Source of the DNA: a virus
Direction: 5' to 3' (one strand)
Length of the DNA stretch: 26,177 nt
IMG/VR virus record: IMGVR_UViG_3300017756_000091
Coordinates: 1 to 26,177 of that record
Shown piece by piece: positions 44 to 12,625 of the stretch. Position 1 is the stretch's first letter, and each line of letters begins with the position of its first letter. The notes under the pieces are model-generated. The model was given only the letters and a program-made list of their open reading frames with translations. It was not told the DNA's origin and searched no databases. The position numbers were made by a program, and so were the translations under genes.

Positions 44-643
44 ATGACAAACCAAATCGCAACAATCTCTGCTGAAATCAACACTCTTGAAGCTGAAGGC
101 TTTGCCCTTGCCAAAGAGTGGAAGGCTATCAGCAAAGCTGACAAAGCACGTTTCACCAAGTCCACGAAAGCCGATGGCTTTGATACGAGACTTGGCAAGC
201 TGATGTTTGCTTTAAAGCAAGAGGCAAATGGTCGTATCACTAGCCAAAGGCTAAAGGATTGCGGCATCAATACCATTGATAAGCGTAGAAGAAGTGAGGC
301 TTTGTGGTTCGTTGAAAACGAAACTGAGGCAAGAGCCTTTGTTCAAGCCTCAAAGAAAGGCTTTACATCCCTGACAGCTTTACAAGCTGCTATGAAGAAA
401 GCTGACAAATCAGCTAAAGCTGATGAACAGGCTGAGACACATGAACAGCCAGAGGCTGATGCAGAGTCCAATGTTGGACTAGACAGCGAAGCTGAAACAA
501 AACAGTCTGAGCCTTTATCACCTAGTGATATTGCTTTGGAAGCACTTATCCAGTGCGAAACAAATGGCATAGCCATTAAGGATTTTATGCTTGCTCTTAA
601 AGAGCAGTTAGAAATGCTTGACGAAACACAGGCAGTAGCATAA
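44..643 (+). CDS. Hypothetical phage protein, 199 aa, acidic middle linker
   Basis: I do not recognise the family. Residues 1-115 look like a compact alpha-helical domain with many Lys and Arg. Residues about 116-160 form a low-complexity Ala/Glu/Asp/Lys linker, and the C-terminal 40 residues are again helical. An in-frame ATG lies at 29, but GAGGAG at 30-35 is well placed for the ATG at 44, so I start there. The linker carries one copy of the 16-bp palindrome (465-480), read as S-N-V-G-L. Nothing upstream is visible because the window begins here. The product is probably a soluble early phage protein, but no function can be assigned. Confidence 0.75.
   Translation: MTNQIATISAEINTLEAEGFALAKEWKAISKADKARFTKSTKADGFDTRLGKLMFALKQEANGRITSQRLKDCGINTIDKRRRSEALWFVENETEARAFVQASKKGFTSLTALQAAMKKADKSAKADEQAETHEQPEADAESNVGLDSEAETKQSEPLSPSDIALEALIQCETNGIAIKDFMLALKEQLEMLDETQAVA
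465..480. repeat. 16-bp palindrome copy 1 (intragenic)
   Basis: AGTCCAATGTTGGACT has 7-bp inverted arms AGTCCAA and TTGGACT around a 2-bp centre. The same 16-mer recurs at 1148, 2151 and 3158 with only the centre changing. This copy lies inside the first gene, about 200 bp upstream of the next start codon. A dimeric DNA-binding protein site is the simplest reading. Confidence 0.8.
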
Positions 644-679: not shown

Positions 680-859
680 ATGTTAGCAAAACTGTTTCTC
701 ATCCTAATAGGATGCATCACGTTTTCATTAGGCATTTGCCTAATTGCCCTATCACTCATTTACACAGTAAATCATGACACTGTGTATGCCTTGATTGCAA
801 TGGCAACGGGCTTTGGCGGCATTATGTATGGAATACATATTTGTGAGGAATCAGCATAA
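680..859 (+). CDS. Small membrane protein, two TM segments, 59 aa
   Basis: The protein has two hydrophobic stretches, about residues 2-27 and 36-54, separated by a short polar turn (TVNHDT), so it is a likely two-pass inner-membrane protein. The ATG at 680 is preceded by CGGAG at 668-672 and is preferred over the upstream in-frame ATG at 659. Its stop codon shares one base with the next start (TAATG), which suggests coupled translation. No family was recognised. Early small membrane proteins in phages often alter the host envelope or exclude other phages, but that is only a general possibility here. Confidence 0.65.
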   Translation: MLAKLFLILIGCITFSLGICLIALSLIYTVNHDTVYALIAMATGFGGIMYGIHICEESA

Positions 860-1083
860 TGGCAAAGCGTCATATCATACCGCTTGGCAAGCATAAGCCT
901 GTCAGGTCATCATGGGCATCTATGGATACACTAGCCTATAGCCGTAGCTATGAGCCTGAAACACGTCCAGAATACCAGTGCTTTGTCACTGGTCAGCAGT
1001 CAGCTATGATTGCCTCATATGAGAAGCACAAGAAAGTGCTTGACAAGCGTGAGGCATTGGCTATTCTGGATTCACTGCTTTAG
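859..1083 (+). CDS. Small basic hypothetical protein, 74 aa
   Basis: This is a basic, soluble protein of 74 aa with Arg/Lys-rich N-terminal third and a helical C-terminus ending in leucines. No motif was recognised. It starts at the ATG that overlaps the previous stop as TAATG. It is followed directly by the long hairpin and palindrome of the 1084-1183 intergenic stretch, so it closes the first small operon-like group. Confidence 0.65.
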   Translation: MAKRHIIPLGKHKPVRSSWASMDTLAYSRSYEPETRPEYQCFVTGQQSAMIASYEKHKKVLDKREALAILDSLL

Positions 1084-1140
1084 TGTGTAACGTAATATAT
1101 ACTGATACTTTAGTGAAAGTATATATTACTTATACATCAC
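1083..1140 (+). promoter_or_regulatory. Long hairpin element A (ACTTT-AGTG-AAAGT apex)
   Basis: The apical hairpin is ACTTT (1107-1111), loop AGTG, AAAGT (1116-1120). Below it, after a one-sided 6-nt bulge (ACTGAT, 1101-1106), GTAATATAT (1092-1100) pairs with ATATATTAC (1121-1129). Weaker pairing continues outward to about 1083 and 1140. The same apex recurs at 2111-2124 with a different outer stem that also pairs. No T-run follows, so a simple terminator is unlikely. It is followed 8 nt later by palindrome copy 2, then by a ribosome binding site and a start codon. Confidence 0.55.
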
Positions 1141-1147
1141 TTAACTA

Positions 1148-1163
1148 AGTCCAATGTTGGACT
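1148..1163. repeat. 16-bp palindrome copy 2 (5' of the 1184 gene)
   Basis: AGTCCAATGTTGGACT, identical to copy 1, ends 20 bp before the ATG at 1184. It sits between hairpin A and the ribosome binding site (ACGGAG), a position suited to an operator or a translational control site. Confidence 0.8.
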
Positions 1164-1183
1164 AAACATTAACGGAGTTAAAC

Positions 1184-1450
1184 ATGGTTATTGCTACTTA
1201 TGAAGATATGTGTCAGGCTTTCAGTGATGCGTTCAAAGCGTATCATGGTGTTCGTCCATACGGCTATGGCAATAGCTTCACATATGATGAGTTAGGTGAG
1301 AAAATCCTGAAGCTGGAAAAGTGGGCTGAAGAGGATGCCCAGCGTGATGCACAGGAAGAAACACGTGCTGTGGCAAGTGTAATGGCTGTAGGCTGTCCTG
1401 ATGAGCAGACAGCACAGCGTTGGTTAAATGATGCATGGGAGATTTACTAA
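1184..1450 (+). CDS. Hypothetical acidic phage protein, 88 aa
   Basis: This is a predominantly helical, acidic protein of 88 aa with no known motif. A short stretch, AYHGVRPYGY (residues about 18-27), loosely resembles QYHGVKMGRY in the protein encoded at 3205, so the two may be distantly related. The start is supported by GGAG about 9 nt upstream. It is the first gene after the hairpin A plus palindrome leader and shares a TAATG junction with the next gene. Confidence 0.65.
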   Translation: MVIATYEDMCQAFSDAFKAYHGVRPYGYGNSFTYDELGEKILKLEKWAEEDAQRDAQEETRAVASVMAVGCPDEQTAQRWLNDAWEIY

Positions 1451-2073
1451 TGGCTATCGAGTTCAATATGCAAATTGCAGTGAAAAACATTATCGCTATC
1501 CGCAAGAAGGCAAAGCCTGAAGATGTGGCAAATGGCATTGCATGGTATGCTGAAGCATATGAAGAGTGTCGTATCATGGCTGATAGGTTCAGATTGCCTA
1601 TCAATGTGGTTACTGGCGTTGTGGCGGCACTGTCACCAAACAATCGTTGGGAATTGAATTTGCGTAATGCAAAGGATTTGATTGATGCCTATCTTGTTGG
1701 CGGCACAGTGGATGATGTATCAGTATGCACTTACAGTGCCATGAAGAAAAAAGCATGGTCTATTCTTGAGGCTATGCCAGACCATGATGAAACTAAGCGT
1801 ATGCTTAATGGCAAGAAGATTGTCTGTTTCTACGAAAACATCATGGGCGATGACACTTGCACCATTGATGGACACGCTAGAAACATTGCTTACAATGAAC
1901 GTGTTGTTCTTACTGATGGAAAGACAAGCATTGGTGCTGTAGAATACCGCAATCTGCAAGAGGCATATCGCATTGCCGCTAGTCGTTGCCGTGTCAATGG
2001 CAGACGTTTGAAGGCATACGAATTGCAAGCAATTACATGGGTCACTTGGAGAAAGCAACACGGCATTGCTTAA
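1450..2073 (+). CDS. Conserved phage protein, possibly HhH-GPD glycosylase-like, 207 aa
   Basis: The protein has the layout seen in a widespread uncharacterised phage family: a helical N-terminus, an ALSPNNRWELNLRNA block (about residues 60-74), a KKIVCFYENIMG block (about 122-133) and a CTIDGHARNIA block (about 138-148). The order of a helical bundle, a short G-K-linked turn and an Asp-containing D-G-H-A motif recalls the HhH-GPD DNA glycosylase fold, in which a catalytic Asp follows the hairpin. This is inference from motif layout only. The ATG at 1450 overlaps the previous stop (TAATG) and has GGGAGA upstream; the in-frame ATG at 1435 is less likely. A role in base excision or DNA modification is possible but unproven. 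Confidence 0.7.
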   Translation: MAIEFNMQIAVKNIIAIRKKAKPEDVANGIAWYAEAYEECRIMADRFRLPINVVTGVVAALSPNNRWELNLRNAKDLIDAYLVGGTVDDVSVCTYSAMKKKAWSILEAMPDHDETKRMLNGKKIVCFYENIMGDDTCTIDGHARNIAYNERVVLTDGKTSIGAVEYRNLQEAYRIAASRCRVNGRRLKAYELQAITWVTWRKQHGIA

Positions 2074-2081
2074 ACCCTTAC

Positions 2082-2144
2082 GTATATCTTATGTGATAAA
2101 CACACTTGAAACTTTAGTGAAAGTGTTTTATCACTTAGATATAC
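2082..2144 (+). promoter_or_regulatory. Long hairpin element B (same apex as element A)
   Basis: The apex ACTTT (2111-2115), AGTG, AAAGT (2120-2124) is identical to that of element A. The outer stems are GTGATAAA (2093-2100) with TTTATCAC (2127-2134), and GTATATCT (2082-2089) with AGATATAC (2137-2144). The 5' side again carries an unpaired segment just before the apex (CTTGAA here, CTGAT in A). Outer stem bases differ between the two copies yet still pair, which favours a selected structure. Palindrome copy 3 follows 6 nt later. Confidence 0.6.
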
Positions 2145-2150
2145 TAGACA

Positions 2151-2166
2151 AGTCCAACGTTGGACT
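2151..2166. repeat. 16-bp palindrome copy 3 (5' of the 2183 gene)
   Basis: AGTCCAACGTTGGACT is a perfect palindrome because its centre is CG. It ends 16 bp before the ATG at 2183 and directly precedes the ribosome binding site GGAG. Copies 2, 3 and 4 are spaced about 1 kb apart (1003 and 1007 bp). Confidence 0.8.
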
Positions 2167-2598: not shown

Positions 2599-2800
2599 AC
2601 ATGACTTTACACCAGCTAAAACACCAGAATATCTTGAAAGTTTTATTGCGTTCTTGGATAACAAGGTTAAGAAAGCTTCCAACAGGGAAGAATTTGAGCG
2701 TATTGCTAGTCTCAAAAGGGATGTGCAGATAGAATACATAGCAAGTTTACACATTAATACTGCATGGTTAAGAGTTAAGCAAGAAAGGCTAAGAGGATGA
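2591..2800 (+). CDS. Hypothetical helical protein, 69 aa
   Basis: This is a 69-aa helical, charged protein with no known motif. The ATG at 2591 has GGAGAG upstream and overlaps the previous stop by 8 nt. Upstream in-frame start codons from 2525 are rejected because they lie inside the preceding gene without a good ribosome binding site. It ends at an ATGA overlap with the next gene. Confidence 0.6.
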   Translation: MPKHDFTPAKTPEYLESFIAFLDNKVKKASNREEFERIASLKRDVQIEYIASLHINTAWLRVKQERLRG

Positions 2801-3189
2801 GAAAAGTACGTATGTATTGGAATTTGCACAAAAAGATATGGTCTGTGCAAGACTGTAAGACAGGGCGTGTTACAGACCATGTGACAGCACTGACACTGGC
2901 AGATGCCAAGTTTGTAGTGCGTCCTGCTGGTCGTGCCAAAGTATTGCGTGAAGGCAAGAAGAATGTTCATGCCTTTGCAGTAGGACACATTAGCTTAATG
3001 AATGGTGTTGCCACTTGTATAACTGGCAGACCAGTTACATATAACCCATACAAGAATGATACATTTGTATTTGCTGACACAGATGAACCCGTCACAGATA
3101 CTCATGCTATCTCATTATTCATACATGATGGGAAACCCAAAGTGTATGCAATCCCCAAGTCCAACATTGGACTAACTAACCAACAGTAA
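2797..3189 (+). CDS. Hypothetical phage protein, 130 aa
   Basis: The first 60 residues have a beta-rich pattern (RKVRMYWNLHKKIWSVQD then TGRVTDHVTALTLADAKFVV), followed by a Lys/Arg-rich turn (GRAKVLREGKKNVHAFAVG). This style is common in small uncharacterised podovirus early proteins. Its last codons contain palindrome copy 4, read as S-N-I-G-L, the same frame as in the 44-643 gene. AGAGG precedes the ATG. The C-terminal tail LTNQQ may be an accident of hosting the regulatory site. Confidence 0.65.
   Translation: MRKVRMYWNLHKKIWSVQDCKTGRVTDHVTALTLADAKFVVRPAGRAKVLREGKKNVHAFAVGHISLMNGVATCITGRPVTYNPYKNDTFVFADTDEPVTDTHAISLFIHDGKPKVYAIPKSNIGLTNQQ
3158..3173. repeat. 16-bp palindrome copy 4 (5' of the 3205 gene)
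   Basis: AGTCCAACATTGGACT ends 31 bp before the ATG at 3205 and overlaps the last codons of the upstream gene. Like copies 2 and 3 it is followed by ACTAA and lies just upstream of a gene start, but no ACTTTAGTGAAAGT hairpin accompanies it. Confidence 0.8.
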
Positions 3190-5578: not shown

Positions 5579-6105
5579 ATAGATTTCTGATTGAGCATCA
5601 CCCTGATGCAATCGCCAAGTCACTGTGTGACAAGCACATTGTGAAGATGCCATTGGAAGAGGCACAGATGCTATGCACAAGCATATGGCATCATGCCCCT
5701 GAGTATGCAGAGGCACATGAGTTGTACAAGCCTGTGCATCAGAAGCATCCATGTACTCTGTGGGCAATGGAGACTAGGGCAAACTTTGTGTTTGCTTTCA
5801 ACCTGTACACATCAATGCTCTGCGAGTACCATCACAGGTATGACAAGTGGCATGGTGCAGGTAATCCTAGTACGACTAACAAGGATGCAAGACCCCAGCA
5901 TATACTGGCGGCTCGTCACTTCATACCTGATGGACAGCTAACGCCACACCCACAGTGCTTCAGTGGGCTTGACCACCTAAAGACGGACGAGCAGTGGCCT
6001 ATAGAAGCGTATCGTGCGTTCTACAAAGTAGACAAGGTAGCATTTGCACGATGGGATAAAGGCGGCAGAACAATACCACATTGGATGGAAGGAGAAGTAG
6101 CATGA
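5575..6105 (+). CDS. Conserved phage protein with CDKHIVKM-EEAQML signature, 176 aa
   Basis: The N-terminal signature (residues 18-32: CDKHIVKMPLEEAQM) and the later HPCTLWAMETRANF and LCEYHHRY blocks mark a protein family found widely in cyanophages and other marine phages. Some members carry a pyrimidine-dimer glycosylase label, possibly because the D-x-H motif recalls T4 endonuclease V, but I regard that as unproven. Many conserved His, Trp and Asp residues suggest an enzyme or metal binder. AAGGATAGTAGG precedes the ATGA junction, and the next gene follows by another ATGA overlap. Confidence 0.65.
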   Translation: MNRFLIEHHPDAIAKSLCDKHIVKMPLEEAQMLCTSIWHHAPEYAEAHELYKPVHQKHPCTLWAMETRANFVFAFNLYTSMLCEYHHRYDKWHGAGNPSTTNKDARPQHILAARHFIPDGQLTPHPQCFSGLDHLKTDEQWPIEAYRAFYKVDKVAFARWDKGGRTIPHWMEGEVA

Positions 6106-7335: not shown

Positions 7336-7688
7336 CCGATGATTGGCAACCTTACACAAAGCGTTTCAATGCAGGTGATAAACCTAACACGTTAAATGGG
7401 GCGTGGTTTTTGCCACGCTTCGTTTATTGGACTGTGATGTGTTACGTTCCGTACTGGACAAAAGAGAGAAAAGGTAAGCACTGGAAGAAATACAAGCTAT
7501 ACAAGTTTAGGTATGAGCGTGGTGAGAACCCAGAGGACTATGTACATGGCATATTCAACAAGTGGGGAATACATTTAGGTGATGGAGTCTATGTTCATGA
7601 CCGCACCAGTCAGTATTACAAACTTGCAACTTATAGATTTGTAGAGGATAGTGAATTTGAAAGTTTAGATTGTGAGGAACTAAAATGA
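7332..7688 (+). CDS. Hypothetical aromatic-rich protein, 118 aa
   Basis: This 118-aa protein is rich in Trp, Tyr and Lys (WKKYKLYKFRYERG), with a moderately hydrophobic stretch near residues 25-42 (WFLPRFVYWTVMCYVPYW) that could lie on or in the membrane. I do not recognise the family. It is joined to DUF932 upstream and to the recombinase downstream by ATGA overlaps, so the three are probably translated together. Confidence 0.6.
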   Translation: MTDDWQPYTKRFNAGDKPNTLNGAWFLPRFVYWTVMCYVPYWTKERKGKHWKKYKLYKFRYERGENPEDYVHGIFNKWGIHLGDGVYVHDRTSQYYKLATYRFVEDSEFESLDCEELK

Positions 7689-8584
7689 AAACAGTAGAAG
7701 ATTTAGTATTGACATACTATTCTTCCAACGATTTCAGTATGTTGAGGGATAAGTCTAAGAAGGACTATAAGTATTTCCTCAACATATTGGTCGGTGAGTT
7801 TGGTGACGTGCCGTATGGAGAGTTGACCAGTAAGCAAGCCAAACACGCATATGAAGAATGGGTAAAGCGTGGCATCACATTTGCCAATCATGTGTGTACT
7901 GTGTCATCACTTGTGTACAGGTACGCAATGGAGATGGAGTACACCACAATCAATCCGTTTGCCAACATCAAACGTAAAGCACCTAAACAACGCAAGGTTG
8001 TGTGGACAGAGCAGGACATACAGAAGTTCCTGTCATTCTGTTATAGTGACTTTGCCTATCGTAACATTGGACTGATTGTTCACATGGCGTATGAATGGTG
8101 TCAGCGTCTGGGTGACATGAGACTATTGACATGGGATGTGCTTGATTTGGATGAGCAGAAGCTGTTTCTTGAGCAGTCAAAGCGTAGGGCAGAGGTGACA
8201 TTGCCTATCAGTGATGACCTTACAGCTATGCTGGTACAACAGAAGGATGACTTTGGCTTCCAACAGTACGTTGTTCCCCGTCCAAGACCCGCTGGTGGCG
8301 TTTATCATCCTTACAGTATAGATAGGCTGTCCAAAGCAGGTCGGCAAGCTATGAGGCTTGCAGGGCTTCCAGAGGAGTTACGTCTGATGGACTTACGTAG
8401 GACAGGCACAACCGAAATGGTTGAAGCTGGTGTCGGTATGGCACAAATCATGTCGGTTACAGGACATAGTAACCCACAGTCAGTTAAACCATACATGAAA
8501 AATACATTTGCAAGTGCGAATTATGCATTGACGACACGAGAAATGCATGATATAAGCATGGACAAGTGCCGCACAGGAGAGTGA
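7685..8584 (+). CDS. int: Tyrosine recombinase (integrase family), 299 aa
   Basis: Residues 1-90 form a SAM-like core-binding domain and 100-285 the catalytic domain. Arg141 lies in CQRLGDMRLLTW, Lys166 in EQSKRRAEVTLPI, Arg238 in RLMDLRRTG, His261 in VTGHSNPQS and the nucleophile Tyr270 in SVKPYMK. The usual box II His (HxxR) is Met235 here, an uncommon but not unknown change that need not abolish activity. The gene is transcribed with the replication block and overlaps its neighbour by ATGA. No attachment site, excisionase or repressor is visible beside it. It could integrate the phage, or resolve genome multimers. Confidence 0.85.
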   Translation: MKTVEDLVLTYYSSNDFSMLRDKSKKDYKYFLNILVGEFGDVPYGELTSKQAKHAYEEWVKRGITFANHVCTVSSLVYRYAMEMEYTTINPFANIKRKAPKQRKVVWTEQDIQKFLSFCYSDFAYRNIGLIVHMAYEWCQRLGDMRLLTWDVLDLDEQKLFLEQSKRRAEVTLPISDDLTAMLVQQKDDFGFQQYVVPRPRPAGGVYHPYSIDRLSKAGRQAMRLAGLPEELRLMDLRRTGTTEMVEAGVGMAQIMSVTGHSNPQSVKPYMKNTFASANYALTTREMHDISMDKCRTGE

Positions 8585-8587
8585 TAT

Positions 8588-9361
8588 ATGTATAATAATA
8601 TATTAAACATTATAAGTGATATAGATATACCTAATGGTAATACAAAGAGAATGAATTGTCCTAACTGTAATGGGTACAAGACATTCACTGTCACTAATAA
8701 CATGGGTTCTCTTGTGTGGAATTGTTACAAGGCTTCTTGTGGCGTCAAAGGCGGCACTCGTGTTCATCTAACAGTGGATGACATACGTGCTGGCTTCTCA
8801 GGTGCAGATGACTTTGCTTCTCAGGAAACATTCACTCTGCCAGAGTACATTGTACCTGCTAACTTTGACGTGGCTGAATGGGCTATGGAATTGTATGGCC
8901 TAGACTCAGAAGAGTTGGGTATTATGTATGACGTCAAAGAACAACGTGCCGTTTTCCCCGTTAGACATGGTACAAAGATTGTTGATGCAACAGGACGTGC
9001 ATTGACACATCGCCTACCTAAATGGAAGCGGTATGGAAATAGTGGCTTGCCATACATACATGGTTATGGTAAAGTCGCTGTAGTTGTTGAGGACTGTGTG
9101 AGTGCCGCAGTTGTGGGTAATGACGTATGGTGTGGGGTTGCCGTGTTGGGTACGTCACTATCCGAATCACACAAGAGGTATCTCTCACAGTTCTCAACGG
9201 CAATAATTGCGTTAGACCCTGACGCACTACCTAAGACCCTACAGATGGCAAAGGAACTACGTGGGCATGTAGATAATGTTCGTGTCCTGCGCTTGATGGA
9301 TGATTTGAAATACCGCAACCCAACAGACTTTGAAAACCTAACCAACATGGGAGATAATTAA
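8588..9361 (+). CDS. DNA primase (zinc finger plus TOPRIM), 257 aa
   Basis: The N-terminus has a zinc-binding set: CPNC (residues 23-26), then Cys46 and Cys51, as in the primase half of T7 gp4. The TOPRIM core follows, with VAVVVEDCVSAAVVG supplying the conserved Glu and AIIALDPDALPK the DxD metal ligands. It would synthesise short RNA primers for lagging-strand DNA synthesis. AGGAGAGTG lies upstream of the ATG. It ends one base before the helicase start, so the T7-type primase-helicase is split here into two adjacent genes. Confidence 0.85.
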   Translation: MYNNILNIISDIDIPNGNTKRMNCPNCNGYKTFTVTNNMGSLVWNCYKASCGVKGGTRVHLTVDDIRAGFSGADDFASQETFTLPEYIVPANFDVAEWAMELYGLDSEELGIMYDVKEQRAVFPVRHGTKIVDATGRALTHRLPKWKRYGNSGLPYIHGYGKVAVVVEDCVSAAVVGNDVWCGVAVLGTSLSESHKRYLSQFSTAIIALDPDALPKTLQMAKELRGHVDNVRVLRLMDDLKYRNPTDFENLTNMGDN

Positions 9362-9362
9362 T

Positions 9363-10586
9363 ATGGAACTAGCCCTAGTACGCAGCCTTATGGACAAGTC
9401 GTTCTACGATGACCATCGTGGTTCTAAATGTCCTGACCGCCTGTTCAGTAAGGATGTGCGTAAGATTAAACAGGCAATTGATACAGCAATGGATAGGTAT
9501 GAACGTACTGTCTCACCCGATGAGATTGAAGCACTGTTCATGTCAAACAATCCAACGCTTACTACAGCACAGAAGCAAGCCTTCGCCAGCCTGTTTGCAC
9601 AGGTCAAGAAGGAACAGCCTATGGGCAGTGACATTGCACAAGAGGTACTGTCTAAGTTGTTTCAACAGGTAGTGGGCGAGGACGTGGCAAACATTGGCTT
9701 TGATATGGTCAATGGTGATGCTACTACACTGGAAACACTCCGCAGTCTGCTTGAACGGTATGGTGATGACTTTGTGCCTAACCTCAACATTGAGTGGGAT
9801 GATATCAGCATTGAAACACTCATGGCAAAGGCTGAGTTGGAAGCACGTTGGCAATTCAATCTACCCTCAGTAACACGTAAGGTAGAGGGTGTCAGTGGCG
9901 GTCAGCTTATTGAGGTAGGTGCTAGACCTAACACAGGTAAGACATCCTTTCATGCCAGCTTGATTGCTGCACCGGGTGGGTTTGCACATCAGGGTGCTAA
10001 GTGTGTTATCTTATGTAATGAAGAGCCTACCCACCGTGTCGGTGCTAGATACCTTACAGCAGCAGCAGGTATGTCTGCCGCAGAGGTGAAGAGCAACATG
10101 GGTAAGGCCAAAGCACTGTACGAACCTGTGATGAACAACATCAAGATTAAAGATGCTGGTGGTCGTGATATGCCTTGGGTTGAGTCTGTCTGTAAAGCAT
10201 ACAAGCCTGACATACTTGTGCTTGACATGGGTGACAAGTTTGGTGTAGCTGGTTCATATTCCAGACCAGATGAAGCCTTGAAAGCCTGTGCTATTTATGC
10301 TAGACAGATAGCAAAGACGTATGACTGTGCTGTATTCTATATGTCTCAGCTATCTGCAGAGGCAGAAGGACGTACCACACTCAATCAGTCCATGATGGAA
10401 GGTTCACGTACTGGTAAGGCAGCAGAGGCTGACCTGATGATACTGATTGGTAAGGCAGCTACAGTAGAAGGACAGGAAGAAGATAGTCCAATGCGGCACA
10501 TCAATATCGTGAAGAACAAGCTGAATGGCTGGCACGGTATGGTGAATGTGGAACTGGACTACAAGACAGCGAGGTACGAAGGATGA
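9363..10586 (+). CDS. Replicative DNA helicase, DnaB/T7 gp4-like, 407 aa
   Basis: This is a RecA-fold hexameric helicase. The N-terminal 150 residues are helical, and the ATPase core includes the Walker A motif GARPNTGKTS (about residues 182-191), ILCNEEP as the catalytic Glu strand, and ILVLDMGDKF as Walker B. VFYMSQLSAEAEGR and the MMEGSRTGKAAEADLMI stretch match the later DnaB motifs, including a sensor and Arg finger region. It unwinds DNA ahead of the polymerase and acts with the primase just upstream. The start is weakly supported (GGGAGATAATTAAT). It overlaps the polymerase gene by ATGA. Confidence 0.9.
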   Translation: MELALVRSLMDKSFYDDHRGSKCPDRLFSKDVRKIKQAIDTAMDRYERTVSPDEIEALFMSNNPTLTTAQKQAFASLFAQVKKEQPMGSDIAQEVLSKLFQQVVGEDVANIGFDMVNGDATTLETLRSLLERYGDDFVPNLNIEWDDISIETLMAKAELEARWQFNLPSVTRKVEGVSGGQLIEVGARPNTGKTSFHASLIAAPGGFAHQGAKCVILCNEEPTHRVGARYLTAAAGMSAAEVKSNMGKAKALYEPVMNNIKIKDAGGRDMPWVESVCKAYKPDILVLDMGDKFGVAGSYSRPDEALKACAIYARQIAKTYDCAVFYMSQLSAEAEGRTTLNQSMMEGSRTGKAAEADLMILIGKAATVEGQEEDSPMRHINIVKNKLNGWHGMVNVELDYKTARYEG

Positions 10587-12625
10587 AGCTAACACTAGAC
10601 GTAGAGAATGTAGGACAGAAGAGGGGTGGTAAGTTACACCTTGACCCCTTTGAGCCTGACAATTCTTTGACTATGATTGGTATGCTTACCGATACAGGTG
10701 AAGAACGGCTGGTTACATTTGACCATCAGGATTGTCCACCTACCCCAAACGGACATGCTCTGGTGCAAGAGTGGTTAGATAAGGCAACAGTACTTATCAT
10801 GCACAATGCCGCCCACGATTTGATGTGGCTATGGGAGTCAGGCTTTACATATGATGGTGCAGTCTTTGACACTATGCTTGCAGAGTATGTGTTACAACGT
10901 GGCCTGAAAGAACCACTAACGCTTGAGGCATGTGCTGAACGATATGAGTTGGCTACACAGAAGCAAGACAGTCTAAAGGAACACTTGAACAGTGGTGGCA
11001 CAGCTTACAATATGAACTATCCTAAGTTGGCAGAGTACTTGTCTACTGACATACATGCTACTCAGCAACTGTCTGACAGGCAGATGTACAAACTAAATAC
11101 CCCTGATGATGCAGGGCTTATGAATAGTGTGACACTTACTAATGAAGTGTGTGTTACTCTTGCTCGTATGTATCAACGGGGATTTACTGTAGACATGACA
11201 GCTTTACAGCAAGTTCATGACGAGTTTCTACAGGAGAAGGAGACATTGACCAATGAATTACAGGCTCACGTTAGGAATCTTATGGGCGATAGCCCTATTA
11301 ATCTTAATAGTCCAGAACAACTATCTTGGGTAGTGTATGGACGTAAGGTGTTAGACAAACAGTATTGGGGCAATGCCATTGACCCTTACATGGATGATGC
11401 TGATTTCCGTAGCCTGATGTCTGCTGGTACAGAGCGTGTGTATAAGACTAAGGCAGAGCAGTGTACAGAATGTGATGGCACTGGCTACATAAGAAAGGTA
11501 AAGAAAGATGGAACACCATTTGCTAAGCCTAACAGATGTACGAATTGTAGTGGGTCTGGTTATTTGTTTGTATCTACTCAAGACTTGGCTGGACTAAAGT
11601 TCAAACCACCGTCTGCTAAGTGGGCTAGTGCTAATGGATTTAGTACAAGCAAACAGAACCTTGAGATACTAGAAGGTGCTGCCAAGTCTAAAGGACTTAC
11701 AGATGCGGTTGACTTTCTATCTAAGGTACGCAGATTGTCTGCAGTAGATACTTATCTATCATCCTTTGTTGAGGGCATACGTATGTTCACAAAGTCAGAT
11801 GGTAAGTTGCATGTACGTTTGTTACAACACCGTACATCTACAGGTAGATTTAGTGGTGCTAACCCTAACATGCAGAACATGCCACGTGGCGGTACATTCC
11901 CGGTAAAGAAGGTGTTTGTATCTAGGTTTAATGGTGGTAAGATACTTGAAGCTGATATGGCACAGCTAGAGTTTCGTACTGCCGCATTCTTATCACAAGA
12001 TGGAGTAGCAATTGAGGAAGTATCTACTGGATTTGATGTACATGCATACACCGCTAAAGTTATTACTGATGCTGGTCAACCTACGAGTAGGCAGGATGCA
12101 AAAGCGCATACGTTTGCACCACTCTACGGGGCAACTGGATACGGAAGAACACCAGCGGAAGCAGCGTACTACACACACTTCAATGACAAATACCAAGGGG
12201 TCGCAGTTTGGCATTCCCGATTGGCTAAAGAGGCTATAAACACGGGCAAGATTACCACACCATCAGGGCGTGAGTTTGCTTTCCCTGATATAGTTCGTAA
12301 GCACAACGGCAGGGTGTCTCACTTTACACAGATAAAGAACTACCCCGTGCAGTCGTTTGCTACAGCAGACATTGTACCCATTGCATTGCTTCACATTGAA
12401 CGCTTGCTAAAGGGTATGCAATCCTGTATAGTCAACACAGTGCATGATAGTATTGTTATTGACGTACACCCAGATGAAGAACAACAGGTAATTGATTTAA
12501 TCAACAAAACAAATGATGACCTACCAGATTTGATTACACTTAGATGGGGAATAAAGTTCAATGTTCCACTGTTACTAGAATCAAAAATAGGTCCGAATTG
12601 GCTTGACACTAAAGACGTTATCTGA
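10583..12625 (+). CDS. polA: Family A DNA polymerase with DnaJ-like zinc-finger insertion, 680 aa
   Basis: The 3'-5' exonuclease motifs are DVE (residues 6-8), HNAAHD (74-79) and YLSTD (152-156). The polymerase motifs are A (LEADMAQLEF, Asp458), B (Arg503, Lys507, Phe511, Tyr515) and C (HDS, His621-Asp622). Between the two parts sits CTECDGTG (from 294) and CTNCSGSG (from 319), the four-Cys DnaJ central-domain zinc pattern. A partial DnaJ domain in this place is a reported hallmark of SAR116 phage HMO-2011. The residue equivalent to E. coli Phe762 is Phe511, the state associated with virulent marine phages. The start overlaps the helicase stop by ATGA. Confidence 0.95.
   Translation: MKLTLDVENVGQKRGGKLHLDPFEPDNSLTMIGMLTDTGEERLVTFDHQDCPPTPNGHALVQEWLDKATVLIMHNAAHDLMWLWESGFTYDGAVFDTMLAEYVLQRGLKEPLTLEACAERYELATQKQDSLKEHLNSGGTAYNMNYPKLAEYLSTDIHATQQLSDRQMYKLNTPDDAGLMNSVTLTNEVCVTLARMYQRGFTVDMTALQQVHDEFLQEKETLTNELQAHVRNLMGDSPINLNSPEQLSWVVYGRKVLDKQYWGNAIDPYMDDADFRSLMSAGTERVYKTKAEQCTECDGTGYIRKVKKDGTPFAKPNRCTNCSGSGYLFVSTQDLAGLKFKPPSAKWASANGFSTSKQNLEILEGAAKSKGLTDAVDFLSKVRRLSAVDTYLSSFVEGIRMFTKSDGKLHVRLLQHRTSTGRFSGANPNMQNMPRGGTFPVKKVFVSRFNGGKILEADMAQLEFRTAAFLSQDGVAIEEVSTGFDVHAYTAKVITDAGQPTSRQDAKAHTFAPLYGATGYGRTPAEAAYYTHFNDKYQGVAVWHSRLAKEAINTGKITTPSGREFAFPDIVRKHNGRVSHFTQIKNYPVQSFATADIVPIALLHIERLLKGMQSCIVNTVHDSIVIDVHPDEEQQVIDLINKTNDDLPDLITLRWGIKFNVPLLLESKIGPNWLDTKDVI

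Follow-up and report, generated by a model that had tools for sequence, protein, structure and literature searches.

Lambda boxB and the coat-protein hairpins are regulatory RNA hairpins that are bound by a protein, and the promoters of the N4 virion RNA polymerase are strand-specific hairpins in the early region. RNase III sites are another kind of hairpin found in phage messages; in T7, site R1.1 is located at 5887, and the loops of bacterial RNase III targets are reportedly little conserved (PMC8708148). One alphaproteobacterial RNase III reportedly cuts T7 R1.1 and requires longer double-stranded RNA than the Escherichia coli enzyme (PMC6121014). In yeast, Rnt1p recognizes stems of at least 13 bp by their AGNN cap (PMC8708148).

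We analyzed a stretch of 26,177 nt (hereafter, the window) from an HMO-2011-type marine podovirus, whose DNA polymerase shares 76% identity with its counterpart in Puniceispirillum phage HMO-2011. Its replication genes are directed rightward and its structural genes leftward. An earlier note had pointed to two related long hairpins, here called elements A and B, both of which lie in the early region among small genes without an assigned function (Table 1). Elsewhere in the window, an integrase-like gene (7685-8584) has the same place as the phage integrase of HMO-2011, and the gene at 2797-3189 is a homologue of mycobacteriophage L5 gp82 (PF25735).

Table 1. Locations of the hairpins, neighboring genes and palindromes in the window, and of hairpins in isolate genomes.
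Feature	Position	Strand	Details
Early protein family (first early gene)	44-643		~200 aa; HMO-2011 gp74, CRP-1 gp01
Gene upstream of element A	859-1083	+	stop codon 1081-1083 meets the hairpin's first base
Element A, whole hairpin	1083-1137	+	lower stem 1083-1090/1130-1137; upper stem 1092-1103/1118-1129; cap GATACTTTAGTGAA 1104-1117
Small gene 3' of element A, 88 aa	1184-1450	+	ribosome-binding site GGAG 1174-1177, after element A
DUF7178 gene upstream of element B	1450-2073	+	stop ends 8 nt ahead of the hairpin
Element B, whole hairpin	2082-2144	+	outer stem 2082-2089/2137-2144; internal loop TAT/TT; stem 2093-2100 + 2102-2107 / 2121-2134; cap GAAACTTTAGTGA 2108-2120
Small gene 3' of element B, 59 aa	2183-2362	+	ribosome-binding site GGAG 2171-2174, after element B
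Palindrome GTCCAAYRTTGGAC, four window copies	466-479, 1149-1162, 2152-2165, 3159-3172		
Palindrome GTCCAATGTTGGAC	1149-1162		3' of element A
Palindrome GTCCAACGTTGGAC	2152-2165		3' of element B
HMO-2011 elements	6-40, 1208-1238		
CRP-1 element	992-1025		
CRP-345 element	820-853		

Both hairpins are real. As the note had described, their outer stems differ and yet pair, and neither is followed by a T-run; their folding z-scores are -4.92 (A) and -5.19 (B), with 0 and 1 of 200 shuffles, respectively, folding equally well. A covariance model trained without either window element scores A at 31.1 bits and B at 35.1 bits. However, the fold proposed for the shared 14-mer ACTTTAGTGAAAGT, whose only exact copies in the window are these two elements, has to be revised. 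When this 14-mer is drawn as an apical hairpin with a bulge on the 5' side, the energies are -5.9 and -5.8 kcal/mol for A and B, as compared with -12.1 and -13.3 kcal/mol for a nested fold in which (A)AGT is the partner of the 5' ACT(T) and GA stands at both ends of the loop. What had been taken as a CTGAT / CTTGAA bulge is actually part stem and part the 5' half of a G-A cap. A switch in element B is not supported: the alternative pairing thought to allow it is weak, and most loop variants are unable to form it.

Viral contigs were scanned for the exact 14-mer and, among the matches listed, many lie in long hairpins whose stems pair although their sequences are unrelated. A descriptor that requires at least 9 of 10 Watson-Crick pairs in the stem and a GA...GA loop found 115 distinct elements, versus 8 matches in reversed sequence. 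In this family, the apex that is exactly shared by A and B turned out not to be invariant. Loops are of 39 kinds among the 103 retained members (GATACTTTAGTGA, GAAACTTTAGTGA, GAACTTTAGTGA, GAACATTAGTGA, GAATGTATATGA, GAATTTGTGA, GATATTTATTGA, GAGTTCTTACGA and others), and loop length varies by 3 nt across the family. Only 4 of the 39 distinct loops could form the originally proposed apex, whereas the nested stem is present in every member, the members having been selected for a paired stem. All share a cap consisting of GA, 0-1 nt, a short inner stem (AC/GU, AU/AU or GU/AC), a small loop and GA. Since the loops vary and the pair adjacent to the cap also varies (U-A, A-U or C-G), while GA...GA is common, the conserved feature, judged from sequence, is the cap, with its potential for tandem G-A mismatches, whereas the stem sequence is almost free but remains paired. 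We also observed two related-looking minus-strand hairpins, in loci L153 and L066 (at ~12584 and ~10507, respectively, counted on the reverse complement), in which the GA/GA is replaced by fully paired CTCAC...GTGAG. Such variants could reveal the role of the cap mismatches.

The median number of stem pairs across the loop is 24 (120 elements), and small bulges or internal loops interrupt the stem. We analyzed covariation in homologues, without using R-scape, and the outcome is positive. In 52 members, both partners vary at each of the 11 modelled stem pairs, and 96.0% of cells are paired, versus 64.3% in shuffled data and no more than 58% in controls with a slid partner. Because these 52 members were preselected for paired stems, a test on elements selected by their loop weighs more. 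For this test, 43 distinct elements were chosen by ACTTGANACTTTAGTGAAAGT alone, with the outer stem unconstrained; positions 5-10 are 88% Watson-Crick, compared with 53% (maximum 62%) when the arms are shuffled, and each of these positions has at least two pair types. Compensatory changes are likewise seen in the upper stem of seven copies located 3' of one gp01-like gene (whose protein is 66-100% identical to HMO-2011 gp01), and the lower stem of the same copies is compensated too (ATCT/AGAT versus ACCT/AGGT). The homologues therefore strongly support the view that compensatory change around a fixed feature reveals a selected structure, although what stays fixed is the GA...GA cap and not the 14-mer in its entirety. 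In short, the structure is real and selected; it is most likely a selected structure of the mRNA, and perhaps a processing site.

Regardless of which genes surround it, the hairpin has a consistent position. It is on the sense strand of the surrounding genes in 99 of 104 elements, the distance from the loop to the next start codon, which has a ribosome-binding site, is 27-86 nt in nearly all of them, and a stop codon is often located just 5'. The downstream proteins form 43 clusters whose mutual similarity is not detectable, and a gene-neutral role fits downstream genes from more than 40 unrelated clusters better than a riboswitch does. The three fully read isolate genomes that bear hairpins have 1-2 copies each, in the early region only, and a BLAST search of isolate phages with one 41-nt element rises above noise only for these three: HMO-2011, CRP-1 and CRP-345. 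No element was found in the HMO-2011-type isolates CRP-207 (full length) or CRP-2, CRP-3, CRP-603 and HTVC033P (in the parts read), so the hairpin is not essential to this group, as judged from one complete and four partly read isolates. It also occurs in other lineages, at loci without detectable HMO-2011 proteins. L346 is a terminase- and portal-bearing phage with six capped hairpins within ~2.1 kb (8872-10984) and no detectable match to the HMO-2011 proteins tested, the L192 type is integrase- and HTH-bearing, and similar elements are present in L145 and L008.

A search of 84,980 prokaryote genomes gave a single exact copy of the 21-nt core, which is approximately the chance expectation, and we therefore rejected a host or prophage origin. 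At the gathering threshold, Rfam has no match in the window or in seven related loci, and a permissive Rfam search of 1040-2240 gave only sub-threshold matches to eukaryotic families. Papers on HMO-2011-type and RCA phages mention neither hairpins nor promoters. As judged against Rfam, in which Ocean-VI and the GUCCY-hairpin (Weinberg 2010) have no number, these long stem-loops are an uncatalogued, phage-restricted family.

A feature of the stem that is unusual for RNA is the near absence of G-U pairs. At pairs 5-10 of the 43 loop-selected elements there are no G-U and one A-C, G-U makes up 1.5% of predicted pairs overall (120 elements), and a wider set, which includes some chance matches, has 7 G-U and 2 A-C. 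This scarcity could reflect a hairpin at the DNA level, correction of palindromes by template switching, or selection for double-stranded RNA that is perfectly paired.

The element had been proposed to be an RNA or a cruciform, and our results narrow this choice towards a single-stranded structure of mRNA sense. Apart from the bias in strand, the sense strand folds more stably than its complement in 96 of 98 apical segments, and the purine mismatches are on the mRNA-sense strand. Together with the position at ribosome-binding sites, these properties make a structure at the RNA level likely. A single-stranded or cruciform DNA hairpin bound by a protein, e.g., as an N4-like hairpin promoter or as a replication or recombination site, would account for the rarity of G-U, which is expected if both DNA strands must pair, and would suit the confinement to the early region in the three complete hairpin-bearing genomes. 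However, a symmetric cruciform leaves the sense orientation and the position near ribosome-binding sites unexplained, no RNA polymerase domain was found in the three large virion proteins tested, and no conserved block lies beside the hairpin across all lineages; we consider such a DNA structure improbable. A sigma-70 promoter with its -35 box (TTGATA) in the loop and its -10 box (TATAAC) in the stem is very improbable. Some stems do give TTGATA-N17-TATAAC, but loop length varies by 3 nt, many loops and stems destroy both boxes, which are thus not conserved at a fixed spacing, and a promoter does not need compensatory pairing. The elements are almost certainly not intrinsic terminators either: although a strong hairpin follows a stop codon, a five-T run 18-55 nt past the loop is present in 1 of 103 elements, and a terminator-like site was found at neither A nor B. 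On inspection, CUGA and the tandem G-A resemble a hammerhead ribozyme or k-turn, but a three-way junction is lacking, as is a 3-nt bulge preceding the GA step, and these identities were rejected.

Our preferred explanation, which we hold tentatively and with slightly more doubt than belief, is that the hairpin acts in cis in early polycistronic mRNA as a gene-neutral site of processing or stabilization, with host RNase III as the first candidate enzyme. A Watson-Crick stem of ~24 pairs, interrupted by small bulges or an internal loop, carries a compact cap made up of tandem G-A mismatches, a short inner stem and a small loop. This hairpin is placed after one gene's stop codon and ahead of the ribosome-binding site of the following gene, whatever these genes are. 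A double-strand-specific endonuclease would cut or bind the stem, which would separate the early messages and protect their ends, as RNase III sites do between T7 early genes; the cap may position or protect the stem. The early intergenic regions of T7, in which we take sites R0.3, R0.5, R1 and R1.3 to lie, were folded here and contain hairpins similar in size, strand and position. As expected for RNase III sites of the T7 type, which have about 20 pairs or more, our stems are long (median 24 pairs), intergenic, in sense orientation in 99 of 104 elements and ahead of the next ribosome-binding site. This likeness to T7, in combination with the data on substrates of an alphaproteobacterial RNase III, makes a processing or stabilizing site the best mechanistic guess. 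Against it stand the rarity of G-U and the several HMO-2011-type isolates, four of them partly read, in which no hairpin was found. Its weak point is the conserved cap, which bacterial RNase III does not explain. Since the loops of bacterial RNase III targets are described as little conserved, the main rival is a factor, of the phage or host, that reads the cap. According to this rival, the hairpin is regulatory, and a phage or host protein bound to the GA...GA cap controls translation of the next gene or makes the polymerase resistant to termination. The cap is indeed the conserved part, and the stem would serve only to hold it. Moreover, the early protein family of window 44-643 co-occurs with the hairpin, and in eight distinct cases the hairpin is directly 5' of the family gene. 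The family and the hairpin are both present in 3 of 3 isolates with the family, and no hairpin was found in the parts read of 5 of 5 isolates without it. All 4 primase-selected loci with the family carry hairpins, while primase-selected L504 and L571 have a descriptor match without the family, with atypical loops. All 28 family-bearing loci that were first counted as lacking an element have one according to the covariance model, although most of these loci were fetched by hairpin patterns. However, this association may reflect only a clade or shared ancestry, and L346, L192, L145 and L008 have hairpins without a detectable family member. The family gene also holds the GTCC palindrome in its linker, so that its product may act as a regulator that binds DNA instead. 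In the AlphaFold prediction (mean pLDDT 84.9), the protein is all-helical and has a disordered linker; this fold has no convincing structural match among the families in the searched set, and the family has no Pfam or PHROG assignment. From its co-occurrence with the hairpin and the palindrome, we regard the protein as a candidate regulator, and we consider control through a protein bound to the cap rather unlikely.

The GTCCRANNTYGGAC palindrome is found behind 50 of the 103 hairpins, and also within coding sequence and in divergent intergenic regions of relatives; in the linker of the 44-643 family it encodes a conserved SNVG. It is separable from the hairpin, as L346, L192, L145, L008 and L368 have hairpins but no GTCCN6GGAC. 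Within one genome it is nearly uniform (HMO-2011 has GTCCGACAGCGGAC at four places and the reverse complement at a fifth), while it differs between genomes, drifting in concert. Because of this pattern in the sequences, the palindrome is probably a DNA operator for a phage-specific regulator, separate from the hairpin. In CRP-345 and CRP-1, the annotated integrase gene retains the variant GTCCAAGGTTGGAC of the palindrome (L122 7079, L123 6868).

A structured element that is found at early gene boundaries independently of the genes offers a concrete, testable handle on the processing of early mRNAs in these phages. For a bacterial system, recognition of a conserved cap while the stem drifts freely would be unusual. 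The covariance model is now at hand for annotating the family.

We also entertain, with appreciable doubt, a broader idea: the hairpin might be a phage-specific RNA signal, long, free in sequence and capped by tandem G-A, that a dedicated phage or host factor reads via the cap, and that punctuates early operons in abundant marine phages and, as a module neutral to the genes around it, has spread among distant phage lineages. The hairpins of lambda boxB and HK022 put resemble ours in being located in early phage mRNA and having a conserved loop. However, up to six copies occur here in 2.1 kb, they are intergenic and not just in the leader, and no boxA partner was recognised; TCTTAC-like stretches, of interest with regard to a boxA of the lambda nut type, fall inside the paired stem. 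The hairpin promoters of the N4 virion RNA polymerase are similarly strand-specific and in the early region, but our elements differ in their long, variable stem, the lack of conserved flanks, and the lack of a polymerase domain in the large virion proteins tested. T7 sites R0.3, R0.5, R1, R1.1 and R1.3 are, like our elements, intergenic, early and in sense orientation, with ~20-25 pairs, internal loops and a position near the next ribosome-binding site. At least three T7 sites have stem sequence in common (AAGG...CCTTTATGATT) while their loops vary, whereas here the cap is kept, the stem is free and G-U is nearly absent. Although Rnt1p is a eukaryotic enzyme that reads another cap, which makes the comparison a functional analogy only, its substrates in yeast likewise combine a conserved cap with a variable stem (PMC8708148).
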